Of a DNA stretch of 54,511 bases, positions 7,717 to 31,236 are shown in pieces; within the stretch, counting starts at the first letter, position 1, and each line of letters begins with the position of its first letter. Location: positions 1-54,511 of the forward strand of contig JAQUKH010000016.1 of the NCBI GenBank assembly GCA_028719205.1, in the 5' to 3' direction. The position numbers were made by a program, and so were the translations under genes. This stretch comes from a bacterium. Its GTDB lineage: Bacteria > JACRDZ01 > JAQUKH01. The notes under the pieces are model-generated. The model did not search any database, was not told the origin of the DNA, and saw only the letters and a list, made by a program, of their open reading frames with translations.

Positions 7717-7746
7717 ATTTTCCTCATTTCAAGAAACTCCCCCTCA

Positions 7747-7770
7747 CCCCCTCTTTAAATAAAGAGGGGG
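7747..7770. repeat. Perfect 10-bp inverted repeat (hairpin) between operons
   Basis: CCCCCTCTTT (7747-7756) and AAAGAGGGGG (7761-7770) are perfect complements around a 4-base AAAT loop. It lies between the end of the chemosensory operon (7825) and the start of the barrel gene (7716). There is no U-tract on either side, so it is not a standard intrinsic terminator. It may be a dispersed repeat or a processing or attenuation hairpin. Confidence 0.6.
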
Positions 7771-7824
7771 GATTGATGGAATTGATAGATTATATCAAAA
7801 ATATTGCATAATTCAAGAAAATAA

Positions 7825-9003
7825 TCACTTTACACCTTCAGGTTCATAAACCCCATCATTAATAACCTCCTCTAATATCTTAACTATATTCAAATCATAT
7901 TTATCTTTTTCCTTTTTGAAAATGTCAAACGCGTCTTTAATATCCATAGCCCTCCTGTATGGCCTGTCGGAAGTTAACGCCTCAAACACATCAGCTACAG
8001 TAATGATCCTGCACATTTCAGATATTTCACTGTTTTTAAGGCCATCGGGATAACCGGTTCCATCCAATTTTTCATGATGCCCCCGTATTAAAGGCAAAGT
8101 TTCTGCCAGAAAATGGATCGGCTCAATTATTTTCTCTCCGATTAAAGGATGTTTCTTAATTATATCGAATTCTTCTTCGCTTAATTTTCCGGGTTTTCTT
8201 AAAATTGCCTTATCTATGCCGATTTTACCGATATCATGCAGGACCGCGGCATATTTTAATGTTACCTTGTCATGTTCCGATAAAAAGATCTTATCCGCAA
8301 GACAGGATACAAGTTTATCTACCCTCTCCGTATGTCCGCTGGTATAGGTATCTTTCGCCTCAATAGCATTCACCAATCCATACAGAGTTTCAATATAACT
8401 CCTCTGTAAATCATTATAAAGCGCGTCTCTTTCCGCGGATACAGCCGAAAGATGTGCCAGATTTTTTTTAAGATTTATATTAACCTCTTCCAGCTCTTTT
8501 TTTGCCTTAAGAAGCAGTGATGTTTTCTCATAAAATCTTTCTTCTAAATGTATATTCAGGGTCTCGAGTTCAACATTTTTATGTGATATTTCCATGTTTT
8601 TCGAATTATATCTCTCCATATAATTATATCTGTTTACAGCCATGCTTATAATATTTTTAAACTCTTCCGGCGATCCCGTACTGGAAAGAATATTATATAC
8701 CTCGCATTCATTAATTACTCTGGCCAGGATATCAAATTCCTTTGCTCCGCTTAACATCAACCTTATAACATCAGGATATTTGGCTTTTATCTTTTTGAAA
8801 AATTCTATTCCATCCAGCCCGGGAACATGATGTTCACAAATAACTAATTTAAGTTTATTATTTTTCAGGATCTGTAACGCGTCATTTGTATTTTGAACAA
8901 TAAATATTTTATATGGCTCTTTTTCAAGTAAATCCAAAAAATAATCATACAACACGACATTATGTAAAACTATAAGGATCGGATTTTCTTCCGTTACATT
9001 CAT
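7825..9003 (-). CDS. Response regulator-HD-GYP cyclic di-GMP phosphodiesterase with degenerate receiver
   Basis: Residues 1-125 form a receiver-like domain, about 130-190 a coiled coil, and about 200-370 an HD-GYP domain. The HD-GYP motifs are intact: LHDIGKIGI, then RGHHEKLDGTGYPDGL, then ITVADVFEALTSDRPYR. Such enzymes hydrolyse cyclic di-GMP. The receiver is unusual. The phospho-acceptor position reads VICEHHVPGLDG, with Glu57 in place of Asp, and both the N-terminal acidic pair and the conserved Lys are missing. It is therefore probably not phosphorylated and may be a fixed-state regulator. It overlaps prfB by 4 bases (ATGA) and ends the chemosensory operon. Confidence 0.85.
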   Translation of the reverse strand: MNVTEENPILIVLHNVVLYDYFLDLLEKEPYKIFIVQNTNDALQILKNNKLKLVICEHHVPGLDGIEFFKKIKAKYPDVIRLMLSGAKEFDILARVINECEVYNILSSTGSPEEFKNIISMAVNRYNYMERYNSKNMEISHKNVELETLNIHLEERFYEKTSLLLKAKKELEEVNINLKKNLAHLSAVSAERDALYNDLQRSYIETLYGLVNAIEAKDTYTSGHTERVDKLVSCLADKIFLSEHDKVTLKYAAVLHDIGKIGIDKAILRKPGKLSEEEFDIIKKHPLIGEKIIEPIHFLAETLPLIRGHHEKLDGTGYPDGLKNSEISEMCRIITVADVFEALTSDRPYRRAMDIKDAFDIFKKEKDKYDLNIVKILEEVINDGVYEPEGVK

Positions 9004-10095
9004 AATTTCTTCTCCTTTTTCAAATACGCCTCAATAAAAGGATATATTTTACCGTCAATTACAGCCTGTACATTCCCGCTTTCTAACCCTGTTCTATGGT
9101 CTTTAACCAGCTGATACGGTTGAAATATATAAGACCGTATCTGGCTGCCCCATCCGATCTCTTTTTTATCACCTGATAATTTAGCTTCTTCGGCTTTTTT
9201 CTCATTTTGCTGCAGGTCATATAACTTTGAACGCAGCATTTTCATAGCCATGGCTTTATTCTTAAATTGCGACCTTTCATTCTGGCATTGGACCACAATA
9301 CCCGTGGGTATATGTGTGATCCTGATCGCGGAATCTGTTTTATTTACATGCTGGCCGCCCGCTCCGCCCGCGCGGAAAGTATCTATCCTGAGATCTTTCT
9401 CATTTATAACTATCTCAACATCATCTTCTACTTCAGGATAAACGAAAACTGAAGCAAAAGAAGTATGCCTGCGTTTATTTGAATCAAAAGGTGAAATACG
9501 CACCAACCTATGCACCCCTGTCTCCGCGTTAAGATACCCGAAAGCGTATTGCCCCTCAACAAAAACCGTGACACTCTTTATTCCTGCTTCTTCTCCGGCC
9601 AGATAATCAACGATTTCCGTCCTGTAATTTTTAATTTCGGCGAAACGCATATACATCCTTAAAAGTATTTGAGCCCAGTCCTGCGACTCCGTCCCGCCAG
9701 CTCCGGGATGAATGACCAAAAAGGCATTATTGATATCCTGCGGGTTATTTAAGACTGCCTTTAATTCTAATTCATCCAGCTCGCCGATAAGTTTATCAAG
9801 CTCAAACATTAATTCTTTACCGCTGTCCTCTTCATCTCCGCTCAAAACAGCTAATTCCGACAGATCTTCCAGTTCTTTAGTCAATTTTTGGAATATTTCA
9901 ACTATATTTTTAGTGTTTTTTAATTCTTCCACTTTCTTCAGGGCCACGTCTTTTTGATCCCAGAAAGAACTTTTCTCCATTTCTTTCTTTAACTCGTCAA
10001 GCCTTTTTTCACTTTTATCCAGGTCAAAGATACCTCCGCAGGCTAACGATCTTCATTTTCCCTTTATTTATTTTATCTTCAAGTTCTCTAATCAT
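9000..10095 (-). CDS. prfB: Peptide chain release factor 2, made by programmed +1 frameshift
   Basis: RF2 reads UGA and UAA stops. A first frame of 23 codons from ATG 10095 stops at TGA 10026-10024; the rest of the gene continues in the +1 frame. The slip site CTTTGAC, preceded by GGAGGTAT (10037-10030), matches the classic prfB autoregulatory signal: low RF2 lets the ribosome slip past its own UGA. After the slip the protein continues DLDKSEKRLDELKKEMEK. The catalytic GGQ motif (RAGGAGGQHVNKTDSA) and an SPF-type tripeptide region (VRISPFDSNKRR) are present. Full product is about 364 aa. It overlaps cheR by one base (TAATG) and the HD-GYP gene by four. Confidence 0.93.
10024..10037 (-). promoter_or_regulatory. 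prfB programmed frameshift signal
   Basis: On the minus strand the order is GGAGG (10037-10033), TAT, CTT, TGA (10026-10024), C. The internal Shine-Dalgarno-like GGAGG sits three bases before the CTT slip codon, and the UGA is the codon RF2 itself decodes. The stop frame and the continuing frame fit a +1 shift exactly. Confidence 0.93.
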
Positions 10096-11555
10096 TATCT
10101 TTCCTCACTTTCCATATCCATTATATTTTTTTTACATATTTTAATAAAAACCTCGAGGTTTATCCCTTTTACGAATTTATCCTTATCAATATCACAACCT
10201 TCTTTATTAAGGTATTCCAGAGCATTATTAAAAGACATAACGGCATTTTGATAATCCCCTGTTTTTTGATATATATTTCCCAAATAGTAATGCACTAAAA
10301 AATATTTAGGATTGATATAAATGACTTTTTTAAACTGGATAATAGCGTCCTCAAGCTTCCCGGCATTATTATAGATCAAACCTAATAAAAAATAAGCGTT
10401 CCATGCAAGAGGATCCAGATTTTCCGCTTCAAGACAGAACTTTACAGCATCCTCGATATTCTCTTTATTTATGGATCTCTCCGCGTTTTTCAGCAGAATT
10501 TCGATTTTTTTTGAAAGATCATCTTTTGCTCTATTAATCGGAACAACGCCGGGAGATGAAGGAACATTTTTTTCTCTGCCGTCCAGGTTTTCCCAGGAAA
10601 ATAAATCCTTTTGGAATATTCTATTATCAATTTTTCGTAAAACATTATTTTTTACATAATTAAGCTCTGATTTTATTTTCTCCCGGCCTGTTTTGCAATA
10701 AAAAAATGCTCCCCTGGCTCCGACTAATTCAAATTCATCAGAAATATTGCTTAAGGTTTCAGAATGTCCTATAAAAAGATATCCTTTCCCGGCAAGGCTT
10801 TGGTAAAAATTATGTATGACCCGTTTTGTAGATTCCGGTTTAAAATAGATCGTAACATTTCTGCAGAATATTATATCCCAATTTTCCATTTCATTCAGAG
10901 GATACGGAGTTTCGACCAGATTAAAATACTTGAATTGCACCATTTCTTTTATACTGTCTTTTACCGCGTAACAATCCTTGTCCCTTTCATCATCCCTTTT
11001 TTCAAAAAAATTTCTAAGGAAAGAATCATCCACTCCCCTTAGCGTCCTTTTTGAATAAACACCTTTTTTCGCAGCCTCTAAAACACGATTAGACACATCC
11101 GTCCCTAATATATGGACCTTCCAGCTTTTCCTGTCCAAAAGGGAGGACCAGACGGTCATAGCGATACTGTAAGGCTCTTCTCCGCTTGAACATCCCGCGG
11201 CCCAGATACGGATAGTCTTATCTTTCGCGCATTTTCTATTTATGATCTCAGGAAGGACTACCTCTCTAAGCGCTGTGAACTGGTCTGGATTTCTAAAAAA
11301 ACTGGTTTCATTTATTGTAATTAAATTCAGTAATTCCCTGAATTCATCTTCACGTAACACGTTAAACTTTAAAAAATCATAATATTCCGCGTAACTGGAA
11401 ATATTTTTTTTAGTTACTCTGGACAAAAGGCTCATCCTTAAAGAATCCAGTTTGCTTTTATCAAGGTAAAGACCGCTTTTTTCATGAATAAAATCACGAA
11501 ACAATTTGAACAACTCTAATGATAATTCTTTTTCATTTATTATTCCGCTATGCAT
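10095..11555 (-). CDS. CheR-type protein-glutamate methyltransferase with C-terminal TPR (WspC-like)
   Basis: CheR methylates glutamates of the MCP signalling domain using SAM. The all-helical N-domain covers about 10-85 and the methyltransferase about 90-290. Motifs are NETSFFRN, then AAGCSSGEEPYS (SAM loop), then FCRNVTIYF. Residues about 350-470 contain three to four TPR units (AWNAYFLLGLIYNNAGKLEDAI and following). CheR fused to TPRs is the WspC/FrzF arrangement and lacks the pentapeptide-binding logic of E. coli CheR; the MCP here also lacks a C-terminal pentapeptide. Length is 486 aa. It overlaps the diguanylate cyclase gene by 16 bases. Confidence 0.9.
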   Translation of the reverse strand: MHSGIINEKELSLELFKLFRDFIHEKSGLYLDKSKLDSLRMSLLSRVTKKNISSYAEYYDFLKFNVLREDEFRELLNLITINETSFFRNPDQFTALREVVLPEIINRKCAKDKTIRIWAAGCSSGEEPYSIAMTVWSSLLDRKSWKVHILGTDVSNRVLEAAKKGVYSKRTLRGVDDSFLRNFFEKRDDERDKDCYAVKDSIKEMVQFKYFNLVETPYPLNEMENWDIIFCRNVTIYFKPESTKRVIHNFYQSLAGKGYLFIGHSETLSNISDEFELVGARGAFFYCKTGREKIKSELNYVKNNVLRKIDNRIFQKDLFSWENLDGREKNVPSSPGVVPINRAKDDLSKKIEILLKNAERSINKENIEDAVKFCLEAENLDPLAWNAYFLLGLIYNNAGKLEDAIIQFKKVIYINPKYFLVHYYLGNIYQKTGDYQNAVMSFNNALEYLNKEGCDIDKDKFVKGINLEVFIKICKKNIMDMESEER

Positions 11556-13003
11556 ACGCGATTCCGCCCGGATTTTTTTGCCTTATAAAGCGCTTCATCA
11601 ACAAACGCGATCAGTTTCTTCCCATTATCATCAACCAGCTCTTTTGTACAAAGCCCTACGCCAAGGCTTATAGTCACATTTAAAGTCCCCTTCTCACCCG
11701 GAAAAGGAAATTTTTCTATTGCCGCTCTTATCCGTTCCGCGACATTTTTCGCTCCTTCCAAATTTATTTCCGGCAGGATAATTATAAACTCCTCGCCTCC
11801 GTAACGGATCGGTATATCCATTTTCCTTATCTCCTGCCTTGCTATCTTTGAAACCTCGCGCAAAATAATATCTCCCTGCAGATGGCCGTAAGTGTCATTA
11901 AATTTTTTAAAGAAATCAATATCAAACATTATTATTGAAAATACGCGGTCATACCGCTTTACCCTTAATAATTCCTGTGGAAGGACCTGTCCCATATACC
12001 TTTTGTTATACATTTTTGTTAACTCATCAGTTATAGACAAAGATTCCACCTTTTGATACAGCCTGGCATTATCCATTACAATGGAAGTCTGATTCACGAT
12101 TAACCGCATTAATTCGTTATCTTTATCCGTATAGCCGTCTTCTATAAAACGTCCGATCATCAAGATCCCCATAATACGGTCCCTTGTTGAAAGTTCAGAC
12201 GCTAAAAAGGATTTCAGCTCCTGGCCTTCATTCCCCTGATCTTTTCCGCATGATTCTTCAATAAATTCAATATTCAATTCATTTTTAGCAATAGACTGTT
12301 CCATCAATTTATTAAAACGGCCTAACACGCGTTCTACTATTAATTCTTTATTTTTTTCAGACAAATTTCCTTTTTGACATATTAATATTTTCTTCTCTTC
12401 TCCCAAAAAAATAAGCCCGACGTCAAAAATAATTATTTTCTGGAGCAGGCTGAGTATGGAAGACATTGTTTTTTCGACATCGTAAATTGTCCTGCCGAGA
12501 TAACTGATCTCATTCAAAACCGTTGATTCTAACAGTTTTTTATCCATCATATCATTTACTCTGGCAAAAACCCCCGAATCATCGATCTCGGTACCGGGAG
12601 ATTCCGTAGTTTCTCTCTTTGATTTTATCTGCAAAAGCACTTTTACTTTTTTTTGCAGTTCATCCGATTTAAATCCCTGGATAAGATCCTTAAGCATATA
12701 TTCATCAGCCCCGGTCTGCATACCCCAGAATTTGTCTATCGGTTTATCCTCGCTTGTTAAAATAATTATAGGGATATGCCTTGTTAAATTGTCATGCTTT
12801 AATAACCGGCAGGCCTGATAACCGTTTAATTTCGGCATGCGCAGGTCCATAATAATAAGATCAGGCATCTGGCTGTAAACTTTTTTTACAGCTTCAATAC
12901 CATCAGAAGCCGTGATAACCATATATCCTTCTTCTTCCAGGATATATTTAACCATCATAACAATGGTTGCCACATCATCAGCAATAAGAATTTTTTTTAA
13001 CAT
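11540..13003 (-). CDS. Response regulator-GAF-GGDEF diguanylate cyclase (WspR-like)
   Basis: The receiver (1-120) has its phospho-acceptor at Asp53 (DLIIMDLRMPKLNG). A GAF-like region covers about 160-310, and a GGDEF domain about 320-485. The active site is intact as GGEEF, and an RxxD inhibitory site (RKMD) lies five residues before it, so product inhibition by c-di-GMP is expected. It makes cyclic di-GMP when phosphorylated, presumably by the CheA-REC kinase two genes upstream. The added GAF domain separates it from classical WspR (REC-GGDEF only). It begins 3 bases after cheB. Confidence 0.9.
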   Translation of the reverse strand: MLKKILIADDVATIVMMVKYILEEEGYMVITASDGIEAVKKVYSQMPDLIIMDLRMPKLNGYQACRLLKHDNLTRHIPIIILTSEDKPIDKFWGMQTGADEYMLKDLIQGFKSDELQKKVKVLLQIKSKRETTESPGTEIDDSGVFARVNDMMDKKLLESTVLNEISYLGRTIYDVEKTMSSILSLLQKIIIFDVGLIFLGEEKKILICQKGNLSEKNKELIVERVLGRFNKLMEQSIAKNELNIEFIEESCGKDQGNEGQELKSFLASELSTRDRIMGILMIGRFIEDGYTDKDNELMRLIVNQTSIVMDNARLYQKVESLSITDELTKMYNKRYMGQVLPQELLRVKRYDRVFSIIMFDIDFFKKFNDTYGHLQGDIILREVSKIARQEIRKMDIPIRYGGEEFIIILPEINLEGAKNVAERIRAAIEKFPFPGEKGTLNVTISLGVGLCTKELVDDNGKKLIAFVDEALYKAKKSGRNRVCIAE

Positions 13004-13006
13004 TTT

Positions 13007-14026
13007 TTACACCAATTTCAATAATTTTATTATCGTCTCCGGTATCATATGGAGCGGGACTACCTTATCAATAATTTTTCTGTCAATAGCCGCTTTGGGC
13101 ATCCCGAAAACAACGCAACTATCCTCATCCTGCGCAATGGTTCCGCCTCCGCTTTTTTTTATCACTTCCATGCCCCTGGCTCCATCATCGCCCATTCCCG
13201 TCATTATTACTCCGACAAGCGAACTGCCGTAATATTTCGCGACTGAAGGAAATAAAATATCCGCTGAAGGCCTTACTCCGCCGACAGGGGGAGAATTTTC
13301 AAATTTAATCCTGCCTTTTTCATCAAGTATAATATGACAAGTATCAGGAGAAAACAAAACCTCTCCCGGAGTAATAATATCATTTTCACGAGCCACGCGT
13401 ATTTTAATCCTGCTCAATTTTTGGAGCCAATCAACCAAGCCGCCGATAAAACCCTGAGAGATATGCTGGACTATAATTATCCCCACGGGAAAATCCTTAG
13501 GCAATAACGGAATAATTTTCCTCAATGCCCCGGGTCCCCCCGTGGAAGAGGCTATAGCTACCGCTTTTTTTCTGTCAATATTGGATTTTGTATATGTTAA
13601 AATCCTTTCTTTTTCAAATTTCGCGTTTAAACTGCTGCTTACCTTGGCCTTAGAAAGAGCTTTAACCTTGTTAATTAAAATAGACGCCTGAATAAAGTCA
13701 TTTTCCAAAATGGATAAAGACGGTTTTTCAATAAAATCCAGCGCTCCGCACTCAAAAACCTGGAACATATTGGTGCTCGTCGAAGAAATTATTAAAATAG
13801 GAACAGGAAAATATCCCATAATGTGGCGGACTGTCTGAAATCCATCCATATCCGGCATCCTAAGGTCCATCAAGACTATATCGGGTTTCAAAACAGGAAT
13901 TATATCAATTGCCTGTTTTCCCCCGTTCGCCATTCCAACGATCCTGATCTCAGGATCCTTCTCTAAAACAATTTTCAACAGTTCCCTGACTGTCGCAACA
14001 TCATCCACGATTACAACTCGGATCAT
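13007..14026 (-). CDS. cheB: CheB-type chemotaxis response regulator protein-glutamate methylesterase
   Basis: CheB removes methyl groups from the MCP when its receiver is phosphorylated. The receiver (1-115) has Asp54 (DIVLMDLRMPDMDG). The methylesterase domain (about 150-335) has the catalytic triad: Ser161 in IASSTGGPGAL, His188 in IIVQHISQGF, and Asp281 in MTGMGDDGARG. Length (339 aa) is normal. The gene lies 9 bases after cheA, with a run of G residues acting as ribosome binding site. In the Wsp comparison it takes the place of WspF, the negative regulator. Confidence 0.93.
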   Translation of the reverse strand: MIRVVIVDDVATVRELLKIVLEKDPEIRIVGMANGGKQAIDIIPVLKPDIVLMDLRMPDMDGFQTVRHIMGYFPVPILIISSTSTNMFQVFECGALDFIEKPSLSILENDFIQASILINKVKALSKAKVSSSLNAKFEKERILTYTKSNIDRKKAVAIASSTGGPGALRKIIPLLPKDFPVGIIIVQHISQGFIGGLVDWLQKLSRIKIRVARENDIITPGEVLFSPDTCHIILDEKGRIKFENSPPVGGVRPSADILFPSVAKYYGSSLVGVIMTGMGDDGARGMEVIKKSGGGTIAQDEDSCVVFGMPKAAIDRKIIDKVVPLHMIPETIIKLLKLV

Positions 14027-14035
14027 TTCAGCCCC

Positions 14036-16261
14036 CTATTTCTGCCTGCCTAACAGGATTTTGACGATTTCTATAAGATTTTGCTGGTTAAAATCGGTTT
14101 TTGTAAGATAAGCGTCCGCCCCCAGCTTAATTCCTCTTTTTTTATCCTCTTCACTCCCCAACCCCGAAACTATGATAACCGGAATATTTTTCATTGAATC
14201 TTTTGATTTTATATTTTCCGTAAGCTCCAAACCGGTCATCCTTGGCATCTCAATATCAGTAACCACCAGATCAATTTGTAATTTTGATATCTTTTCCAGC
14301 GCTTCAATTCCATCTCTTGCCTCTTCAACATGATATCCGGCTGATTCAAGTATGCTTCTCTGCAATTGCCTGATGGTCATTTGATCGTCCGTTACTAAAA
14401 TATTATGGCCCTTGGTAAATATTTTTTTCCCTTCTTCACCTGTCAAACTCTGGGTCTCTTTTTTCCTGGCGGAAATAATTAATTCAAAAGGGTCAAGAAT
14501 AAATACCAATTCTCCGCTTCCCAATATAGTCACTCCGATAATATTAAAAATATCCTGGAATTTTTCTCCGACACTTTTTATCACTACCTCGCATTCATCA
14601 ACCAGCCGGTCAGCGACAAAAACTACTCTCTTATCTTCTCTTCCGACCACAACCGCTGAAAGAGGATCCAGTTTTTTTAGCTTTTTCTTCTTCCTGTTTA
14701 TTCCCAAAACCGTATCCAGCCACGCTAAGGGCAGAATATGGTCTCTTATGGAAATTGCCTCCCTGCCTTCTACCGTGTGGATGTCTTTCATTGTTATTTC
14801 CAAAGTCTCTTCAACGGATAATGAAGGTATCGCGAATAACTGAGATTCAATTTCGAAGATCAAAATATTAGTCGTGGCTAAAGAAAGCGGTATTAACAAA
14901 ATTATCTTTGTCCCCGCGTTTTTTTCAGTCTCAACATGCAAAAAACCGTTTAATCCCTTAATATTTTTTTGCACAACATCCATACCCACTCCCCTGCCGG
15001 ACACCGAGGTTATGATCTCAGATGTGCTGAAACCTGGCCTGAAAATAAGATTAAGCAGGTCTTCCCGTTCCATTAATTCGATCTCTTTTTCCCTGTAAAA
15101 ACCTTTTTTTACCGCGGACTTCTTGATCTCTTCAATATCTATTCCGTGGCCGTCATCCGAAAATTCGATCTTCAGATGGCTGCCCTGATAACTTATTGAT
15201 ATTTTTATCTTACCGACCGCGGGTTTTCCTTTTTCCGCGCGCTGAGCGGGCCCTTCTATTCCATGATCCACGGCGTTACGCAAAAGATGGATCAAAGGGT
15301 CCCTTATGTTCTCAAGTATTTTTTTATCGATCTCTATTTCCCCTCCCTCAATAGAAAAATCGATCTGCTTGCCGAACTGATTTGCCAGGTCATGAACAAG
15401 CCTTGGAAAAGTTGAAAATAAAATGGATAACGGAAGCATACGGACTTCCATGATCTTCTGCTGATAATCAGCGACTATAATATTATGGTGCTGAATAGTC
15501 CTGGAATGGTCATTATAAAAATTAATAATGTGGTCATTTAGAACAGAAATATTCCGGATATTTTTATCCAGATGATCTCCCAGGTCTCTAACCCTTGTAT
15601 CATCAGTTTTTAAAAACAGTTTTTGAAATTTCTTGCTGAAATTCTGCCATTCCTGGTTTTCTTTATAAACCATATCCTGTATATTTTCCATGTCCTTAAG
15701 CTCTTTATTCAGGCAGATCCGGTCAATGATCATCTCGCTCGATAGATTTAAAAGATAGTCCAGCCTGTCCGTGCGGATCCTTACGGAATCCTGAATTCCT
15801 GACGGAATGATCACCGCGGTATCAGAAAGCTTCGCTTGAGGGGCCTTTGTTTTTTCCGCCGTTTCAACTTCCAACGGCTCCCCCTTGGCCATCGCGTCCA
15901 GTTGATCCATAATTTTAGCCGCGTTAAAATCTGTTTCCCGGTTTTCTACAACTGCCTTTAAATACAGGTCAATACCGTCTACCGCCTGTAAAAAGGTGTT
16001 CATCATTGAAGGAGAAAAAGAAATTTTTCTGTCAGAGATCATTTTAACGATATCTTCCATGCGGTGGGATAAAGCCCCGACATTATCAAATCCCATCACC
16101 CTGCTTAACCCTTTCAGATTATGGAGGCTGCGCATAACATCCTCCAAAACCTCTTTTTTTAAGGGGTCTTTTTCTATGCTCAAAAAGCCTGTGTTAAGTT
16201 TTTGTATTAACTCCAGGCTGTCTTCCTTTAAGGCTTTTAAAATAACAGATTTATCTGGCAT
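14036..16261 (-). CDS. Hybrid chemosensory histidine kinase CheA-REC (WspE-like)
   Basis: The HPt domain at 1-110 has phospho-accepting His47 in HNLKG. A dimerisation segment and ATPase follow: N box [12 protein letters not shown]1 [11 protein letters not shown], and G2 [10 protein letters not shown] CheW-like domain covers about 460-600. A C-terminal receiver (about 620-741) has Asp669 ([14 protein letters not shown]). There is no recognisable P2 domain. CheA fused to a receiver is typical of Wsp and Frz systems rather than flagellar chemotaxis. It overlaps the MCP gene by 11 bases. It presumably phosphorylates the CheB and GGDEF receivers encoded next. Confidence 0.92.
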
Positions 16262-17873
16262 TTCTTCTGTTTTCCTCTATTTTAAACTTACCGATCTCTA
16301 TTTTCAGTTCTTCAGCCAGATTATTAAGTTCACTCGCCGAAGATGTGCCGTCTTTCGCTCCGGCGGCAGACTGGCGCGCGACGGTTGAAACCTCTTTCAT
16401 TGACATGGCAACCTGTTCGCTCGCGCTTTTCTGCTGCTGCGTCGCAACATTGATCTGGTTTACGGATTCCGCTGTCTGCTTCGCTATTTCCAGGATCTCT
16501 TTCAATATATCTCCTGCCTTACGGGCAAGCCCTACTCCATTTTCTATCCCTTTCATACCTTGTTCCGTAGACATGACCGACGCGTTTGAAGAAGATTGTA
16601 TCTCTGTAACAAAATTTTTTATTTTAGTCGTGGATTTTACTACATTTTCCGCTAATTGCCTTATTTCCACGGCCACCACAGCAAAACCTTTTCCATATTC
16701 ACCGGCCTTAGCCGCTTCGATCGCCGCGTTCAAGGATAACAATTTCGTCTGATTGGCAATATCATCAATAATATCAATTACTTCACCGATCTTCTGTGAA
16801 TGTTCTCCTAACGCGATTATTTTTTCCGCGGTTTGCTGCGCCTTATTTTTAATATCTTCCATCGCGCTGATCGTATCCGCAACGGCCCTTTGGCCTATCT
16901 CAGCGCCTTTTAACGTTTGTTCAGTGATCTTTACCACACCATTCGCGTTATCCGCGATCTGGCTGGCGGAGGCGGATAATTCCTCAACAGTAGCGCTGAT
17001 CTCACTGACTGAGGCGGCCTGTTCAGCGGCACCGCTGGCCTGCTGTTCCGAGGAAGCCAGAAGCTCATTTGAAACCGTGCCGATCCTAAACCCCGCGGAC
17101 TGAATATGTTCAACTAAATTTCTGAGATGTTCAACCATATCATTAAAATGGCTGGCTAATTGTCCGATCTCATCATTGGATTTAATATTGATCTCTTTCG
17201 TCAGGTCTCCCGAATCTGTTATCAAATTTGAAATTGCTGAAATACTGTTTATTGGATTTACAACAAACCATTTTATATAATAATAAAGAATGATCATAAT
17301 GATCCCGATACCCACCATAAAAATAAGGCCTAGCATAACCTGCCGTCTCTTTATCGCCACATCGCTTTCTTTTAAAGACACTGCAACAGACATAGCGGCT
17401 ATTACTTCATCCTGTTCCCCTTCATGGCACTTCATACAATCTTTTTCAAGTCTTAATGGTATTATTTCTTTGAAAAATCTATTGTTACTTTCTGAAAAAG
17501 TTAACTTAATGACCTCACCATTAATAGCCCTCGCCTCATCATTACCTTTTGGTTTCTGAGCATCCGTTATACCATATTGTTTTCCCAAATGGCTGGACTT
17601 AATAATTTTAAGATCCGATACGACATTTGATTCAGCCAGCTGTTTCATATATTCCCGGACACCTTCATTATCACCTTTAGCCATAAGAATATACGCGCCC
17701 TTAAAAATTACATTATTCACTAGGTCGATCTTTTCTTCTACCTGCTGATTAAACTGTCCTGTTTCAGAAACAAGGGTATAGAGCATCACACTACCCCCGC
17801 CCATAATAAGAATAAGGCCTATGGTCAGCATAAATTTAAAATTTATTCTAGTCCATTTTTTATTCGCGTCCAT
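16251..17873 (-). CDS. Methyl-accepting chemotaxis protein with a periplasmic heme-c sensor
   Basis: TM1 is at about 14-35 and TM2 at about 178-200. Between them lies a periplasmic domain of about 140 residues holding one heme-c motif, CMKCH, at 146-150 in the context [16 protein letters not shown]. This layout resembles DUF3365 and heme-c PAS sensor domains known from Geobacter-type MCPs. HAMP follows (about 200-255), then the signalling hairpin with its conserved tip ([20 protein letters not shown]). There is no CheR-docking pentapeptide at the C-terminus. Its likely signal is redox potential or a heme ligand such as NO, CO or O2. GGAGG lies 9 bases before the ATG. Confidence 0.92.
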
Positions 17874-18344
17874 TTAACTTCCTCCTTTGATATCTTTTAA
17901 TATTTTTTTTTCTTGTTCTGTCAAAATTCTATCCTTATCTAACATAAGAACTATATTTTTTTTAAGGTACGCAACAGCCCAAAAAACACTGACATTCGAT
18001 CTTAATTTGATAGAACCAGGAAATCCAAGCAACTCTTTCATAAAAACATTAAAGATCTCATCCACTGAATCCACTAAAATCCCGACTAAGTTTTTTTCAA
18101 TTATAACAATTATTATACTGTTTCTATCCCGGGACGATAAAACTTCCCATTTTTTGCTAAGAGAAATTACAGGGATATTCTCATCTCTGAACCTGATTTC
18201 TCCTTCCAAAAAAGGAAAATCTTTTTCAATTGGAAGCATTTTTGGAAAATTAATTATTTCTACAACCTCTTCGATGTCTATCCCTATAAAATATTCTCCC
18301 GCTTTAAAAGTTAAAATCTCAATACGCTCCGGGCTCATGATCAT
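17874..18344 (-). CDS. CheW-like coupling protein, second copy
   Basis: This 156-aa single CheW domain begins EILTFKAGEYFIGIDIEEVVEIINFPKM and includes a GEIRFRDENIPVISL segment, the usual beta-barrel core. CheW proteins link the MCP to the CheA kinase. It overlaps the preceding cheW stop by 4 bases (ATGA) and abuts the MCP gene. Two unequal CheW proteins are also found in Wsp systems (WspB and WspD). It is more divergent than the first copy and lacks the usual GVTNIRG block. Confidence 0.85.
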   Translation of the reverse strand: MIMSPERIEILTFKAGEYFIGIDIEEVVEIINFPKMLPIEKDFPFLEGEIRFRDENIPVISLSKKWEVLSSRDRNSIIIVIIEKNLVGILVDSVDEIFNVFMKELLGFPGSIKLRSNVSVFWAVAYLKKNIVLMLDKDRILTEQEKKILKDIKGGS

Positions 18345-18925
18345 TTCCTTACAGTTAGAATATCTTTAATGATATTTTCTAAATGGATTATCGCTAAAAA
18401 ACGGCCGGATGTTTCTTCTTTTTCATCAGAAGACGATGCTTCACTGATCTTTATCTCTCCATATATAAATTCGGACTTCACCCGGTCCAATGTTGATAAA
18501 GGGGAATCGATATGAGACATTTGAATATCGATAACTTCAGAAACACTGTCCACCAGCAAACCGATCTTTACCTTATTATTCTCAACAATTAAAACTCTTG
18601 CTTCACCGCTAAGATCGGAAACCGGTGTACTGAAAAGCTTCCTCAGGTCAATAACCGGTATGATCTCTCCCCTGATATTTGTAACTCCAAGTATATATTC
18701 CAGCACTTGAGGTACAGCAAAAATTCTCGGTACCTTAATGATCTCTTTAACATCTTCTATTTTGGTGCCATACCATTCTTTAGAAAGATTAAATACAACG
18801 AGATACATTCTTTTATCTTCTGATATATCTTTCACGCGGTTTTTTTGGACTGACATATCCTCCTGCCATTGTTCTTTTTTAGACTTAGCCCGGTTAGGAT
18901 TATTATCACTTTTTATTTCAGTCAT
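18341..18925 (-). CDS. CheW-like coupling protein, first gene of the chemosensory operon
   Basis: The CheW domain covers about 40-190, with KEIIKVPRIFAVPQVLEYILGVTNIRGEIIPVIDLRK, cited here as KVPRIFAVP, GVTNIRG and PVIDLRK. A charged 35-residue N-terminal extension precedes it. It couples the receptor array to CheA-REC. The ATG at 18925 has a strong GGAGG eight bases upstream. A perfect sigma-28 -10 element lies 36 bases before the ATG, making this the promoter-proximal gene of the operon that runs to 7825. Confidence 0.9.
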   Translation of the reverse strand: MTEIKSDNNPNRAKSKKEQWQEDMSVQKNRVKDISEDKRMYLVVFNLSKEWYGTKIEDVKEIIKVPRIFAVPQVLEYILGVTNIRGEIIPVIDLRKLFSTPVSDLSGEARVLIVENNKVKIGLLVDSVSEVIDIQMSHIDSPLSTLDRVKSEFIYGEIKISEASSSDEKEETSGRFLAIIHLENIIKDILTVRK

Positions 18926-19040: not shown

Positions 19041-21878
19041 ATGGTCTTTTTAAGATTAATAATATTACTATTAGCGGTTATCATCCCCTTTTCGGTATCT
19101 CTTGCCAATTGGTCAAAAGAAACAATCATAAGCGATAAGAATCTTAGGTCAACTAACCCCAGCATAACATCGGATAACAAAGGTAATATATACGCGGTTT
19201 GGCAAACTAACGGCGAAGAATCACAGGACATTTATTTTTCCAAATATGACGGCCGGTGGAGCCCGATCGACAAGATAACAGAATCCAAAGGCAAACCCCA
19301 AATGCCTGTAATAATATCAGATGTTTTTAACAATCTGCATTTGGTTTGGCAGGACAAGATCTCATCAAATTATAATATTTATTTTGAATCTTTTTACAAA
19401 AATTTTTCTAACGGATGGCTGAAAAACATAAAAGTATCGAGGGAAAACTCCCAGGCTGCTGATCCCGATATCGCGGCTGATAAGACCGGGAACATCCATG
19501 TTGTCTGGAAGGCTTTGGAAAATGATAATTATGAAATATATTACAAAAAATTTGATCCCGCTAAAGGCTGGGAACCTGATATAAAACTCACGAAAGGATC
19601 TGTATCTGCCGCGAGCCCGAAACTCGCGGTGGACAAATACAATAACCTGCACCTTGCCTGGCGGGATAACCGCGACGGCAACTATGAAATTTATTATAAA
19701 TATTTTGACGGAAAGAACTGGAGCGATGATTTCCGCATAACTAACGACCCCGCTTCATCGGAAAACCCTGAAATAGCGGTAGATAACTACCAGAATGTCC
19801 ATATTGTCTGGCGGGATAACAGGGATAAAACTTACGCGATATATTATAAAAAATGGAACGGTAAGATATGGGAACCCGATCAGAGGATCTCAAATATTAC
19901 TAACGCCTCCGCTTCAACAACTAATCCGGCTATCACTATAGATATTTTGGGGGTGATCCATGTTGTCTGGCAGGATAACAGGGATGGGAATTACGAGATC
20001 TATTACAAAAAATTCGACGGGAAATGGAGCGAAGATTCACGCGTTACAAATGATAAATTCAATTCATATAATCCCAAAATAATTTCCGATTCCGTGGCTA
20101 ACCTCCATCTGGTATGGTACAACCAGGAAAATGATTCATCTTATATCTACTACAAAAAATTCGTTTCCCCGAGGCCTTTGATCAAAGCGGTAAAAGATAC
20201 CAAAGTGAACAACGATACCGGCGCGGCAGGCCAGGCAGAAACGAGTTTAGCCATAAATACGTACGGGGAAACTTTTATATGCTGGGCCGATGTCAGGCTG
20301 GGTGAATTTAATTCAGATATTTACGCGCAATTTTACAACAATGATTTTATAAAAGCAGGGGACAACTTTCGCGTGAATAATGATAAAAAATCCGCTATCC
20401 AGGGGCATCCGCGCGTGTCTCTTTTTTCAAATGATTATTTTGGTGTTGTCTGGCAGGACGAAAGAAATGAAAACTCAGATATCTATTGCCAGGTTTATGA
20501 TGTCGGCTGTGAACCAAAAGGCGATAATTACAAAATTAATGATGACAAGGCAGGATCAGACCAGGATCAGCCGGATATTGCCGGGTTAAAAAATAAACCG
20601 GCGTTAGTTGTCTGGCGGGATGAAAGGGACGGACAGCTTGAAATTTACGGGCAAATATTAGATACTACAATCTCTTTTATAGGAAAAAATTTTAAAATCA
20701 CCCAGTCACCAAAAAAAATGTATTGCCGGTGGCCGACGGTTTCCGCTTCCGGCCGCGAATTCTATATAGCTGCCTGGGCGGATAACCGCGGAGGAAATTG
20801 GGACATATACGGGCAGAAAATACAAGCTGACGGTAAATTAACAGGAAAAAATTTTAAAATAAATGAAATATCAACAGAAAATTGCAATCACCCGTCTGTC
20901 GCGTGCGACCTGAACGGTAATTTTCTTGTTACCTGGTGGTCAAGCGGAAAAGGGAACACAGTTGTTGTTTACGCGCAATTTTTTGATGAAAACAGCAAAC
21001 CTGTCGGCAAGAATTTTCTGGTCGGTGATACTAATAACGGAGATATCAAACAAATTGATCCTGTAACTGACATTGATACGAATGGAAATTCCGTTATAGC
21101 ATGGCTGGATTACCGCAATGGAGATCCTGATATTTACGCTCAGAGATATGATCCGAAAGGAACAAACATAAATTACAATTTTCAGGTAAATGATTATACA
21201 ATAGAACAAACTCTAATTAAAACCGGCTCAACACCTATCTATGAAGGAATTATCCAAAATGAACCGGAAGTAAAATTTCAGCAAAAAGGAAATATTGTTT
21301 TTACATGGGTAGACCACCGTTTGGGCAATCCTGATATCTTCGCCTGCCGTTTTGAACCTGTAAATATGCTGCCGATAGCCGATCCCGGTTCAGATCTCAT
21401 GTGGGAGGTAAATATGCCGGTTACTCTGGATGGTTCAGCCAGCCGCGACCCTGACGGAGACACTATCGTAAGTTATTCATGGATCCAAACCGCCGGGCCC
21501 GCGGTTACGCTTGAAAATCCGCAGTCTTCCAGGCCGGGTTTTACACCAAAAGCAGTCGGACAATACACATTTAAACTTATAGTCAATGACGGCCTTATAA
21601 ACAGCGAACCCGCGCTGGTCAATATCACAGCCGTGGATAATACTCCTCCAACTATCACAATTGAAAACATTTATCCGGTGAATAAAGAAAATATCCAGCC
21701 TATAATTAAGATTGATGACAATTCAAATCTGCCTGTCGACATAACAATTACATTGGATGAAGGGTCTTATACGCCGGGAACAATGATCAGCGCAAAAGGC
21801 AACCATATACTGGATGTAATCGCGGTTGACAAATGCGGGAACACTTCCTATAAGCAGATAAAGTTCAGTATTGAATAA
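19041..21878 (+). CDS. Large secreted beta-propeller-like repeat protein with PKD domain
   Basis: A signal peptide (LIILLLAVIIPFSVSLANW) precedes about 700 residues of repeats. The repeats carry a core like VWQDNRDGNYEIYYKKFDG, at first every 45-55 residues and then as a variant reading VVWQDERNENSDIYCQ. This resembles sialidase/BNR or WD40-like propeller blades, and the count suggests two propellers. Residues about 755-840 form a PKD domain (PIADPGSD, VTLDGSASRDPDGDTIVSYSW). An Ig-like domain of about 90 residues ends the protein. No catalytic motif, sorting signal or LPXTG is seen. A surface adhesion or recognition role is likely. It is transcribed divergently from the chemosensory operon. 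Confidence 0.8.
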   Translation: MVFLRLIILLLAVIIPFSVSLANWSKETIISDKNLRSTNPSITSDNKGNIYAVWQTNGEESQDIYFSKYDGRWSPIDKITESKGKPQMPVIISDVFNNLHLVWQDKISSNYNIYFESFYKNFSNGWLKNIKVSRENSQAADPDIAADKTGNIHVVWKALENDNYEIYYKKFDPAKGWEPDIKLTKGSVSAASPKLAVDKYNNLHLAWRDNRDGNYEIYYKYFDGKNWSDDFRITNDPASSENPEIAVDNYQNVHIVWRDNRDKTYAIYYKKWNGKIWEPDQRISNITNASASTTNPAITIDILGVIHVVWQDNRDGNYEIYYKKFDGKWSEDSRVTNDKFNSYNPKIISDSVANLHLVWYNQENDSSYIYYKKFVSPRPLIKAVKDTKVNNDTGAAGQAETSLAINTYGETFICWADVRLGEFNSDIYAQFYNNDFIKAGDNFRVNNDKKSAIQGHPRVSLFSNDYFGVVWQDERNENSDIYCQVYDVGCEPKGDNYKINDDKAGSDQDQPDIAGLKNKPALVVWRDERDGQLEIYGQILDTTISFIGKNFKITQSPKKMYCRWPTVSASGREFYIAAWADNRGGNWDIYGQKIQADGKLTGKNFKINEISTENCNHPSVACDLNGNFLVTWWSSGKGNTVVVYAQFFDENSKPVGKNFLVGDTNNGDIKQIDPVTDIDTNGNSVIAWLDYRNGDPDIYAQRYDPKGTNINYNFQVNDYTIEQTLIKTGSTPIYEGIIQNEPEVKFQQKGNIVFTWVDHRLGNPDIFACRFEPVNMLPIADPGSDLMWEVNMPVTLDGSASRDPDGDTIVSYSWIQTAGPAVTLENPQSSRPGFTPKAVGQYTFKLIVNDGLINSEPALVNITAVDNTPPTITIENIYPVNKENIQPIIKIDDNSNLPVDITITLDEGSYTPGTMISAKGNHILDVIAVDKCGNTSYKQIKFSIE

Positions 21879-24073: not shown

Positions 24074-24799
24074 CTAAAAACAATATTTAAAACCCTCTTT
24101 ACGAAGCCGTTCACGGCGAATTTCATAATCAGGAATAATTGTACCAAGAATTTTCCAAAAATCTTTTGAATGGTTTACATGTTTCAAGTGGCAAAGTTCA
24201 TGAACTACAATATAATCAATTAACGATATTGGAGCCATAATTATATGCCAATTAAAACGGATACAACCTTTATGATTGCAGCTTCCCCATCGCTTGCTTT
24301 GATTAGCAAGAATTATTTCCGGTACAATCAGTTTTAATTTTTTTGCATATATTTTTACTCTTTTAGCCAAAATTATTTTTGCATGTTTTTTGTACCAATG
24401 TATAAGCTTATTTCTAACCTCGGCTATCGTATTTAAATCACTATTGAGATTAACTAAAAATCTTCCACCTTTCACGGTAATATCTGACTTATTTTTAGAC
24501 TTCAATATTCTCAGCCGTATTTGCCTCCCCAAATATAAAAAAGTTTCACCGGTAATAAATTCTCTTTTTGGCAAATTCTCCATAACTTCATTTATTCGGC
24601 GTTGTTTATCCAAAATCCACGCGGCTTTGGAATGTATCAATTTTGAAAGGAACTTAATAGTTGGTTTTAGGGGTGTCCTCAAAAATACTCCTTCAACCGG
24701 ATCAACAAAAATACTTATGGTTTTTCTTTTTTTACTGCGTTTAACAAAGAAGTTGATTTTTCTTTTGCCAAATAAAACTGTTCCCTTTTCTACTATCAT
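24074..24799 (-). CDS. YgjP-like (DUF45) zinc metallopeptidase
   Basis: This 241-aa protein contains the zinc-binding motif HELCH in YIVVHELCHLKHVNHSKDFW, with a further His six to eight residues on. The family block RWGSCNHKGCIRFNWHIIMAP precedes it. This is the SprT/DUF45 type of cytosolic metallopeptidase, often carried beside type I restriction genes. It overlaps the hsdR stop by 4 bases (ATGA), so it is translated with HsdR. It may assist turnover of the restriction complex, which is inference. Confidence 0.85.
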   Translation of the reverse strand: MIVEKGTVLFGKRKINFFVKRSKKRKTISIFVDPVEGVFLRTPLKPTIKFLSKLIHSKAAWILDKQRRINEVMENLPKREFITGETFLYLGRQIRLRILKSKNKSDITVKGGRFLVNLNSDLNTIAEVRNKLIHWYKKHAKIILAKRVKIYAKKLKLIVPEIILANQSKRWGSCNHKGCIRFNWHIIMAPISLIDYIVVHELCHLKHVNHSKDFWKILGTIIPDYEIRRERLRKEGFKYCF

Positions 24800-27700
24800 T
24801 TTGCAAGCCTCACTCTTGCCAATTCCATAATCTTAGCTGTCAAAATTTCAATTTCTTCAAATTGATAACCTTTTTCCCTTAAAATTCCTTTTATCTGTTT
24901 TCGCATTTCACGCTGTACATCATCTTTATGAATCCAATCTATAACTGCTAATTTTTTCAGCGATTCAAATATAAAATGCGTCAATTCCTTATTATTATCC
25001 TTTTTATAATTATATTCTGAAGCATCTTCTTGAAAATTGTCTTCATTTGAGTCTTCGTCAGATTTTGTTGCAGGAATATTGCTCACAATAGCCCTGTTAT
25101 TTTCTTTAAGAATTTTATATAAAGCATATTCCGCTTCAGAAAAACCGAGAGAGCCTGCAATTTTTCCAACATTCTGAATTTCACTTACCAAGAACTGTAA
25201 ATGTTTTAATTCTTCAATTGCGTTTAACCGTTCCTGTTTTCTTTCATCAATAATCTGCTCAAGGCGTTCTTTAATTGACTGATAAAAAACCGGATTTTCT
25301 TCTGAATGTATATGTATTTCATAACGAATGGCATGTTCTATCTCGCTTGCCTTTGCTTCAGGTGTTGTCAATGCTTCAACTACCTCGTCAAATTTTTTAG
25401 AGAAAATTGACACCGGTTCCAATAGCTTCTGAATTCCATTTGTTTTTATATGATCTTCAATAAGCTCGCGCACTTTTGCACCGCAGCTTGATAAATCTAA
25501 AGTTGAATCTCTAAAACGGTTCTTCGCGGCATTTCTTACTTTGCCGAGCCATTTTAAATCCGCGCTATATCGTAAAGCTGACGGATCAGGCAAAACCATG
25601 TCCATACTTTGTGAAAAACGCCTGAAGGCAACATCAAAATCGTATCTTATGTCTTCCGGCTCTAATATTTTTATACACGCCTCGAGGTCGGATTTATCCA
25701 CCCTGTCAAAGAACCGCATAGCCGATCGATGCCTCGCTTCAAGACGAGGAAGCTCATCAGTCTTAAGATTAAGCGCACCAATTATATCCGCGGGCTGAAA
25801 CACCGCGAGCGCTTCCTGTAATTCCCTGGATATTCCCCAATAATCAACCACAAGGCCATAATCTTTTTTGTCCGCTGTCCTGTTAACACGGGCAATAGCC
25901 TGTAAAAGCGTATGGTCTTTTAACGGCCTATCGATATACATAACTTGTTCAACAGGCGCATCAAATCCGGTTAAAAGCTTATCGCAAACAACAATAATGG
26001 CTAATTTTTCTGCCGAATCTTCTTTAAAACTTCTAATAATTTCTTTTTCCTCTGCCTGTGTCTTATGGTGTTTTTTAAGACGCATCGGATCGTTATTACT
26101 ACCTGATATTAAAATCGCTGATGGCGGCGCGTTTAATTTATCAAGTATTTCTTTATAAATAATTGCCGCCTCCCGGCTCGAAGTAACAATCTGGGCTTTA
26201 AACCCGTTTGGCATAATGAATTTCTCATAATGTTCAATGATATCAAGACATATTGTTTCTATTCTTGTAGAAGCAAGCCCGATAATTTCTTCTGTTATAT
26301 ATTTTTTCTTAATTTCCTCACGTTCATTTTCGCTATAATCTTGAAAATACCTGTCAAAAATAACATCCAGATTCTCGCCCTGCACATGAACATCTGGAAG
26401 CCTGCCTTCATAAAATATTGGAACAGTTGCTTCATCCTGAACAGCCTGTTCAATGGTATAAGTGTGGATATATGGGCCAAACGTCTGGATAGTACTGCGG
26501 TCGTTTTTATCTATTGGTGTTCCGGTAAATCCTAAAAAACACGCGTTCGGCAATACTTGCCTCATATTAGCCGCCAAATTTTTATATTGTGTCCTGTGCG
26601 CCTCATCAACCAGAACAAAAACATTTTCATCCTGAAGGGGTAAATCCCCGTGCCCGCCCTGATCTTCAGTTAATTCCTTGAATTTCTGGATTGTGGTCAT
26701 TATAGCCTGGCCATTGCCTGCCCGAATTAATTCTCTAAGGTGTCTTACACCCTCCGCCTGAACAGGATTAGGAAAACCGCAACGTTGAAAAGTTCCGACG
26801 ATCTGGTTGTCAAGATCAATCCTATCGGTAACTATAATTAACATTGGATTTTCGAGTTCTTTACAGCGTTTTAATTTTACAGCAAGCCATAACATCGACA
26901 GCGACTTGCCTGAACCCTGTGTATGCCAGATAACACCTCCGCGTTCTTTTTTATTTTCAGCCTTAATAATCCGTTCCATAGCATTATTTACCGCTATGAA
27001 TTGTTGATATCTGGATATCTTTTTTTGAGTCCGCCCGTTTTCAACTTCAAAAACGATAAAATTACGGATAATATCTAAAATATTTTTCTTTTCAAATAAT
27101 CCATAAATAAGAATATCCTGTGAAAGAGGAGGTTTACCAAAAATACGGGAGGTATATTCTTTATTTAACACATCTAGGCTGATCGGATAAGGCTCCTTCC
27201 ATTCTGAAAAATGCCTGTAAGGCGCGCATATTGTAGCAAATTTTGCTTTCTGTCCGCAGGCCGCGATAAGAATCTGAACAGTTTCAAATAATCCAGGCAC
27301 GCCCCTGTTTTTGAATTCGTCTTTTAATTCTTGATATCTGGAGAGCTGTTCAATTGCTTTATTTATAGGTTCGTGAATTGTGGGGCTTTTACATTCAATA
27401 ACCGCCAAAGGTATCCCATTAATAAAAACCACTACATCGCAAATAATATTTTCTTTCGGCCCTGAAACTTTAAACTGCCGAGTTACAATAAATTCATTTT
27501 CCTCAGGATGTTCAAAATCTATAAAATAAACATTATGACTTTTTTTACCTTTCCCATCAATGTCCTGTTCAAGCGATAATCCATGCACCAGAGAAATATA
27601 AATCTTCTCGTTTGCTTCGATCAAACTGGACGCGGAAACATTAGTTATAGCCCTGACCGCCTTTTTAAGATTTTCATCAGAAAGCCAAGGATTAAGCTCT

Positions 27701-27858
27701 TCGAGCTTTTTTTCTAAGCGATGAACCAAAACAGTATCTCTCAAACTCTCCCGTTCCGCATCCAATTTCTCTGACACCACAAACGTATATCCGAGCTTTT
27801 CCAAAAATTCAACCGCCGGATTTTCAGATAAATTTATTTCATTCCAGTCTTGTGTCAT
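24796..27858 (-). CDS. hsdR: Type I restriction endonuclease, R subunit
   Basis: HsdR is the ATP-dependent translocase and nuclease of the type I complex. The N-terminal nuclease core ends in GIPLAVIECKSP (the ExK part of the D-ExK site). The motor has Walker A HTQGSGKSLSM, DEAH box VLVDEAHRTQY, motif III FLGFTGTP, and a VVCDKLLTGFDAPVEQVMYID / ARVNR helicase II region. A helical C-terminal domain for binding HsdM follows. Length 1020 aa is complete, with no frameshift seen. AAGGAT precedes the ATG. Confidence 0.95.
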   Translation of the reverse strand: MTQDWNEINLSENPAVEFLEKLGYTFVVSEKLDAERESLRDTVLVHRLEKKLEELNPWLSDENLKKAVRAITNVSASSLIEANEKIYISLVHGLSLEQDIDGKGKKSHNVYFIDFEHPEENEFIVTRQFKVSGPKENIICDVVVFINGIPLAVIECKSPTIHEPINKAIEQLSRYQELKDEFKNRGVPGLFETVQILIAACGQKAKFATICAPYRHFSEWKEPYPISLDVLNKEYTSRIFGKPPLSQDILIYGLFEKKNILDIIRNFIVFEVENGRTQKKISRYQQFIAVNNAMERIIKAENKKERGGVIWHTQGSGKSLSMLWLAVKLKRCKELENPMLIIVTDRIDLDNQIVGTFQRCGFPNPVQAEGVRHLRELIRAGNGQAIMTTIQKFKELTEDQGGHGDLPLQDENVFVLVDEAHRTQYKNLAANMRQVLPNACFLGFTGTPIDKNDRSTIQTFGPYIHTYTIEQAVQDEATVPIFYEGRLPDVHVQGENLDVIFDRYFQDYSENEREEIKKKYITEEIIGLASTRIETICLDIIEHYEKFIMPNGFKAQIVTSSREAAIIYKEILDKLNAPPSAILISGSNNDPMRLKKHHKTQAEEKEIIRSFKEDSAEKLAIIVVCDKLLTGFDAPVEQVMYIDRPLKDHTLLQAIARVNRTADKKDYGLVVDYWGISRELQEALAVFQPADIIGALNLKTDELPRLEARHRSAMRFFDRVDKSDLEACIKILEPEDIRYDFDVAFRRFSQSMDMVLPDPSALRYSADLKWLGKVRNAAKNRFRDSTLDLSSCGAKVRELIEDHIKTNGIQKLLEPVSIFSKKFDEVVEALTTPEAKASEIEHAIRYEIHIHSEENPVFYQSIKERLEQIIDERKQERLNAIEELKHLQFLVSEIQNVGKIAGSLGFSEAEYALYKILKENNRAIVSNIPATKSDEDSNEDNFQEDASEYNYKKDNNKELTHFIFESLKKLAVIDWIHKDDVQREMRKQIKGILREKGYQFEEIEILTAKIMELARVRLAK

Positions 27859-27868
27859 TTTAATCCTT

Positions 27869-27958
27869 TTATTGTTTTTTCATCATCTCAAATAATTTCT
27901 TGCATATGCTGTATAAGTTTTTCAAATCACCTTTACTTAATTCTTTTGCAAAAATCAT
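27869..27958 (-). CDS. Possible 29-residue ORF between the NDT-like gene and hsdR
   Basis: An ATG at 27958 opens a 29-codon frame (MIFAKELSKGDLKNLYSICK, then KLFEMMKKQ) that overlaps the end of the preceding gene in another frame. The sequence is an amphipathic, charged helix like the C-terminal helix of small winged-helix regulators. No ribosome binding site is visible. It may be a remnant of a longer gene or chance. Confidence 0.25.
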   Translation of the reverse strand: MIFAKELSKGDLKNLYSICKKLFEMMKKQ

Positions 27959-28790: not shown

Positions 28791-28831
28791 TATTTTCTTC
28801 TTTTCCTTTCATATTTGCACCCTCTTGCATA

Positions 28832-29059
28832 TTATCCTTTTGGCGGATGAGGATCGTTCCCATGGCTATCCGATTGTGAAATTTTTCCATCGCTATTATG
28901 AATTACAAATTCTGTTTTCTGATTTTGGCTAACTTCCCTGCCTTGTTTTACTGCTTCTGCTTTGGTATCGAAATGTCCCGAGGCTCTATCTGCCCCTCCT
29001 TTTTTAACATCCCAACCACCATTTGGATTATGAACTACATGATGACTTTTTCTTGACAT
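28832..29059 (-). CDS. DUF2188 family small protein
   Basis: This 75-aa protein matches the DUF2188 pattern: HHVVHNPNGGWDVKKGGADR, then ASGHFDTKAEAV, then EFVIHNSDGKISQSDSHGND and a PHPPKG ending. The ATG at 29059 has a near-perfect AAGGAGGTGA. The biochemical role of the family is unknown. It sits in a three-gene insert between hsdS and hsdR with a trypsin-like protease and a nucleotide-hydrolase-like protein. Confidence 0.85.
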   Translation of the reverse strand: MSRKSHHVVHNPNGGWDVKKGGADRASGHFDTKAEAVKQGREVSQNQKTEFVIHNSDGKISQSDSHGNDPHPPKG

Positions 29060-29133
29060 TTGATTTCACCTCCTTGTTCCTAAGTATTTTTTATAGAATT
29101 AAATCCACTATTATTTTGCATTATATTTTTTAA

Positions 29134-29805: not shown

Positions 29806-29816
29806 AAATATACCTC

Positions 29817-31055: not shown

Positions 31056-31236
31056 TCACGAGTCCTTTATCAGAGGGCATAGCACGCTGTACCCCTGCAT
31101 TCGCATCAATCTTTTCTTCTGTTTTTACAAATTTTCCGCATCCGGCACAATGATAAATTAGTAATATCTTTTTTATCGCCTGCATTTTTCTCATGTGCGA
31201 TTCAGTGTATTTTTTACAATACGGGCACCAATCCAT
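31045..31236 (-). CDS. Small zinc-ribbon protein between dinD and hsdS
   Basis: This 63-aa protein has two CxxC pairs, WCPYCKKYTES near the start and HCAGCGKFVKT about 25 residues later, forming a classical zinc ribbon. The basic middle (HMRKMQAIKKILLIY) could bind DNA or RNA. The start lies 3 bases after dinD, and the stop overlaps hsdS, so it is part of the operon. No named family is recognised. Confidence 0.65.
   Translation of the reverse strand: MDWCPYCKKYTESHMRKMQAIKKILLIYHCAGCGKFVKTEEKIDANAGVQRAMPSDKGLVNEK

Follow-up and report, generated by a model that had tools for sequence, protein, structure and literature searches.

Wsp systems have been reported only in beta- and gammaproteobacteria, in which they keep a fixed wspA-F synteny (PMC8552884), and chemosensory clusters with a CheR-TPR methyltransferase belong predominantly to the alternative cellular function (ACF) class, with response regulators that carry GGDEF, GAF, or other outputs (PMC3447774). 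With regard to receptors, the sCache_heme family comprises Cache domains with a covalent heme, one signalling-type member of which was found to bind nitric oxide (NO) tightly and to form no stable oxygen complex (PMC12889525, a 2026 preprint). For GSU0935 and GSU0582, the published description is of periplasmic sensing domains that are redox-active (PMC2577667). Here we compare with these systems a chemosensory locus found in a stretch of 54,511 nucleotides (hereafter the window), which corresponds to contig C16 in a genome of 2.59 Mb with 92.7% completeness. We infer that the host is a groundwater bacterium of the candidate phylum Desantisbacteria or its GTDB equivalent; among open-access papers naming Desantisbacteria, no title or abstract mentions a chemosensory system.

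The first-pass annotation had proposed a Wsp-type system encoded by eight genes in a single minus-strand operon, with a phosphodiesterase and a GAF domain added to the usual parts. All eight genes were recovered in place with strong Pfam matches, and one further gene was found between them. The features are as follows, with orthologue identities given for two related genomes, G001 (same genus) and G003:

18341-18925, minus strand: CheW 1, coupling protein and first gene of the operon (Pfam CheW, 1.8e-30; orthologues at 63% in G001 and 49% in G003)
17874-18344, minus strand: CheW 2 (Pfam CheW, 8.7e-18; orthologues at 45%), overlapping CheW 1 by 4 bases
16251-17873, minus strand: chemoreceptor (MCP) with a transmembrane segment, a predicted periplasmic c-heme Cache domain, a second transmembrane segment, HAMP, and a signalling hairpin (PF21563; MCPsignal, 6.3e-42, and HAMP)
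14036-16261, minus strand: CheA-REC hybrid kinase with Hpt His47 and REC Asp669 (Pfam Hpt, HATPase, CheW, and REC, the last at 1.2e-27)
13007-14026, minus strand: CheB methylesterase with receiver (Pfam CheB, 3.4e-58; REC, 9.8e-21)
11540-13003, minus strand: REC-GAF-GGDEF diguanylate cyclase (Pfam GGDEF, 1.5e-44; REC, 5.2e-23; relatives aligned)
10095-11555, minus strand: CheR-TPR methyltransferase, last gene of the conserved core (Pfam CheR, 2.4e-60, and TPR)
9000-10095, minus strand: prfB (release factor 2) with a programmed +1 frameshift (TIGR00020, 490.7 bits; sequence)
7825-9003, minus strand: HD-GYP phosphodiesterase with a pseudo-receiver (HD_5, 2.4e-38; receiver alignment)
7739-7767, minus strand: G-rich hairpin 3' of the operon (consensus scan)

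From 18925 to 7825 on the minus strand, neighbouring genes overlap or are separated by gaps of no more than 9 bases once prfB is counted. The first-pass annotation had overlooked prfB, which lies between CheR-TPR and HD-GYP. Its open frame (9000-9980) has no N-terminus. Translation from position 10095, where the ATG and the cheR stop codon share the letters TAATG, yields 23 codons that lead into AGG-TAT-CTT-TGA-C at 10035-10023, the canonical prfB +1 frameshift site, at which simple gene callers truncate RF2. The prfB stop codon is in turn overlapped over 4 bases (ATGA) by the start of the HD-GYP gene, and prfB also lies directly after cheR-TPR in G001. It is a co-transcribed passenger that plays no part in signalling. 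Between the HD-GYP gene and a porin-like gene, the hairpin site (7739-7780, minus strand) contains a perfect palindrome, CCCCCTCTTTATTTAAAGAGGGGG, followed by TGAGGGGGAG, and may represent a terminator with a weak tail or a dispersed repeat. On the other side, a divergent gene for a secreted repeat protein with propeller-like repeats and PKD (19041-21878, plus strand) adjoins the che operon; it is 79% conserved at the same place in G001 and is a possible surface target. Elsewhere in the window, a type I restriction-modification locus (24796-34252, minus strand) encodes HsdR, HsdS, and HsdM; two more genes, for a trypsin-like peptidase and a BRO-N protein, are interspersed among those for the subunits.

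The order CheW, CheW, MCP, CheA-REC, CheB, REC-GAF-GGDEF, CheR-TPR is identical in G001 (identities of 45-71%) and G003 (46-60%), both of which come from one small phylum, and CheA through CheR-TPR are retained in a third relative, G002. This seven-gene synteny in two other genomes, along with the overlaps and short gaps between neighbours, indicates that the operon did not arise by chance. The same gene order is present in a distant genome (G089), and several others have a REC-GAF-GGDEF gene beside CheA. By searching 386 genomes with the cyclase (E < 1e-70), 14 genomes were obtained, and 12 of these 14 have the closest cyclases within a che neighbourhood, two of them on contigs whose ends are close to the locus. 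Linkage is partial in G385, where Hpt and a CheR fragment accompany the cyclase and a CheA piece is on a different contig, and in G255, where CheB alone is linked. Scanning named genomes with a single CheA sequence gave no match. We also observed two other CheA-REC clusters (L165 and L160) with a REC-GAF-HD-GYP protein nearby; in other lineages, the breakdown of c-di-GMP may be tied to chemosensory clusters.

The receptor scores 32.5 bits against PF21563 (cut-off 27), and its periplasmic Cache domain contains C146-M-K-C149-H150, a covalent-heme motif absent from the first-pass annotation. CxxCH is kept in all three MCP orthologues (CMKCH, CLKCH, and CLKCH), and among the che neighbourhoods examined it was seen elsewhere in two MCPs only. 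When the periplasmic part was compared with all PDB chains, 3B42 and 3B47, c-heme MCP sensors from Geobacter, ranked first, with CxxCH aligned. Heme attachment would be possible because cytochrome c assembly proteins are encoded in the genome (five matches), and the sensor is predicted to carry one covalent c-type heme. The signalling hairpin, as estimated from match lengths against enteric receptors and CtpM, is probably of the 40H class, to which WspA belongs (PMC2577667).

In the cyclase, Asp53 is present, and both the active site (GGEEF, residues 402-406) and the I-site (RxxD, residues 393-396) are intact; the G003 orthologue has GDEEF in place of GGEEF. The linker of 196 residues is read from sequence as a GAF-like domain. 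Its match to GAF_2 in the window protein is weak (0.0021, below the cut-off), but the GAF assignment made earlier is backed by relatives, four of seven of which match GAF_2 (best, 3.5e-6). An AlphaFold model built from a two-row alignment had a mean pLDDT of 40.6 and was not usable. In a tree of REC and GGDEF sequences, WspR of Cupriavidus and Novosphingobium forms its own group (100/100), apart from the operon cyclase. The idea that a GAF domain had been added to WspR was rejected, since REC-GAF-GGDEF cyclases fall outside the WspR group.

Both phosphorylation residues of CheA, His47 and Asp669, are invariant in three orthologues. Phylogenetic analysis of CheA was based on the kinase core of 42 sequences; this tree replaced an earlier, larger one in which the receiver was kept and deep forks were weak. 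Wsp CheAs from Cupriavidus, Novosphingobium, Burkholderia, and two more cluster together at 100/100, and the window CheA falls outside this group. The Wsp references of Cupriavidus and Novosphingobium came from a plasmid search, in which most records had no annotation, and the Burkholderia match has no GGDEF regulator alongside, which would fit the published H-system. REC-less and CheC/CheD-linked CheAs, including the second CheA of the host, on contig 33, lie on the other side of a fork supported at 91/87. In approximately unbiased (AU) tests, forcing the Desantisbacteria CheA trio into this latter group was marginally rejected (p = 0.042) and forcing it beside Wsp was not rejected (p = 0.31). 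The window CheA lies outside the flagellar-type group (REC-less, CheC/CheD-linked) with moderate support, and may thus not be of a flagellar class, within a tree whose deep branching order stays weakly supported and whose groups were set by CheC/CheD linkage and REC loss.

A CheA-REC hybrid, a CheR-TPR protein, and two CheW proteins are present as in Wsp; nevertheless, the genes do not follow the wspA-B-C-D-E-F(-R) order, the CheA is outside the beta/gamma-type Wsp clade, and the output regulator, which does combine REC and GGDEF, has the 196-residue linker and lies outside the WspR clade. The cluster does pair CheR-TPR with a multidomain response regulator, the ACF feature (PMC3447774). The Wsp-type label stands as regards an ACF-type array built on Wsp principles (CheA-REC, CheR-TPR, two CheW proteins, and REC-GGDEF). 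It was dropped for Wsp as defined in the literature, in view of the different gene order and of the distinct groups, each at 100/100, into which Wsp CheA and WspR sequences fall. The operon fits the ACF class, is Wsp-like in its parts, and would be a separate relative of Wsp.

The catalytic part of the HD-GYP protein looks complete in its sequence, and its receiver is degenerate. In an alignment to a receiver profile built from neighbourhood sequences, which took the place of a MAFFT alignment whose second half was faulty for the four receivers, Leu13/His14 occupy the acidic pair and Glu57 the position of the phospho-Asp, and the aligned part stops before the Lys; the other three operon receivers are aligned across the full functional motif. 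CheA is not expected to switch HD-GYP by phosphorylation because this receiver has neither the acidic pair nor the Asp nor the Lys. Replacement of Asp by Glu sometimes mimics phosphorylation, and therefore the protein may perhaps be always on. The HD-GYP gene is not in the operon of G001 or G003, no operon orthologue was found in the three relatives, and no full-length orthologue was found in other genomes of the phylum. It is lineage-specific, lies outside the operon core, and is probably a recent neighbour. A phosphodiesterase added under the same system, as the first-pass annotation had suggested, is thus not supported, given the receiver and the conservation pattern of the gene, and a CheA-controlled HD-GYP was rejected as a candidate.

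FliG_N, the sole flagellar marker searched, had no match in the host genome (93% complete), and PilT is present. The genome also has matches for 18 GGDEF, 14 HD-GYP, 2 EAL, and 6 PilZ domains, implying that c-di-GMP signalling is rich in this organism and that the operon is one input among many. A paralogue of the operon cyclase without receiver (G000:C2:37552-38640) is 56% identical over the GAF-GGDEF part; there is a stop inside the match, and its surroundings include two single receivers and a gene for an HD-GYP protein. A second che cluster (contig C33:1-16000) encodes two CheR proteins, CheW, CheY, CheD, CheB, CheA, and two CheC-like proteins, and its target, in a genome without a FliG match, may perhaps be type IV pili.

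We propose, with a probability of roughly 0.6, that the operon encodes an ACF array in which a heme signal (NO or redox) is relayed by CheA to c-di-GMP and not to a flagellum, with HD-GYP as an uncontrolled neighbour. The periplasmic Cache heme, once attached, would respond to redox state or to a ligand of the heme, with NO as the most likely signal, and the receptor would control CheA through the two CheW proteins. CheA might then phosphorylate its own receiver, CheB, and Asp53 of REC-GAF-GGDEF, and phosphorylation of Asp53 would presumably turn on c-di-GMP synthesis, which could be limited by product inhibition at RxxD and tuned by a GAF ligand. CheR-TPR and CheB would provide receptor adaptation. 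The output may reach targets of c-di-GMP, for example PilZ proteins or type IV pili, with no flagellum involved, and HD-GYP, if active, would act as a constant or otherwise regulated sink of c-di-GMP. The further claim, that an array maintained as a seven-gene unit in an uncultured phylum without a detected flagellum turns a signal at a periplasmic c-heme (NO or redox) directly into c-di-GMP, has in our estimate an even chance of being correct.

Several alternatives were weighed against this proposal. It is possible, and we hold this view only tentatively, that the heme domain senses redox state in the periplasm and not NO, all else being as in the proposed relay, considering that the nearest solved relatives, GSU0935 and GSU0582, are described as redox-active; against this, tight NO binding was measured for a signalling-type sCache_heme protein, a result for one member in a preprint. 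It is unlikely that the system acts chiefly on type IV pilus motility by way of a separate CheY and that the cyclase plays a secondary role. PilT and the lack of a flagellar marker would suit such an output; however, there is no stand-alone CheY in the operon, and in the two closest genomes no output regulator other than the cyclase is linked.

Similarly improbable is a true Wsp system that relays surface or envelope-stress sensing to c-di-GMP through a WspR with an inserted GAF domain. The same set of parts, the CheA sister position left standing by the AU test, and the probable 40-heptad class of the receptor speak for it, but the different gene order, the separate CheA and WspR groups, the heme sensor of the receptor, and the survey restriction of Wsp to beta- and gammaproteobacteria argue against it. 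We give still less credence to a bifunctional switch, in which CheA would drive both synthesis by REC-GAF-GGDEF and breakdown by REC-HD-GYP. Although both enzymes look catalytically complete and share one operon, with the ATGA overlap joining prfB and HD-GYP, the receiver residues are lost, the relatives have no counterpart in the operon, and prfB intervenes. The earlier suggestion that c-di-GMP is both made and removed under one kinase is therefore unlikely, and HD-GYP may act as a constant sink within the ACF relay that we favour.

Bacteria move between an attached and a free-living state in response to NO and redox state, with c-di-GMP as the messenger and, in most cases, a cytoplasmic heme protein as the sensor. 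Few targets are known for the periplasmic c-heme receptor family, and here one such receptor is encoded in one operon with a kinase and a diguanylate cyclase, which opens the complete pathway to reconstitution and testing. If the proposal is true, heme-Cache chemoreceptors would gain an operon-defined output, and Wsp-like logic, from chemosensory array to c-di-GMP, would exist outside proteobacteria with another cyclase and gene order.

Compared with described systems, the operon shares with Wsp of Pseudomonas and Burkholderia (WspA-F with WspR or WspH) two CheW proteins, an MCP, CheA-REC, CheB, CheR-TPR, and REC-GGDEF in one cluster, but differs in gene order, in its predicted heme-binding receptor, in the GAF-like linker of about 196 residues in the cyclase, in its separate CheA and cyclase clades, and in phylum. 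With ACF CheR-TPR clusters it shares CheR-TPR beside a multidomain regulator, and combinations of REC, GAF, and GGDEF were already listed there (PMC3447774); we found no description of such a cluster that has a Cache receptor of the c-heme type and comes from a candidate phylum in which no flagellum is detected. In PleD-like or REC-GAF-GGDEF cyclases, a GGDEF domain with GGEEF and an I-site is likewise under the control of a phospho-receiver, but their partner is an ordinary histidine kinase, whereas the operon cyclase is linked to CheA. Finally, sCache_heme chemoreceptors (DUF3365/Tll0287; PF11845/PF21563; GSU0935 and GSU0582) have the same periplasmic CxxCH c-heme domain fused to HAMP and an MCP signalling domain, whereas here the receptor gene lies inside an operon with a diguanylate cyclase output, and therefore the target pathway can be read from the genes.
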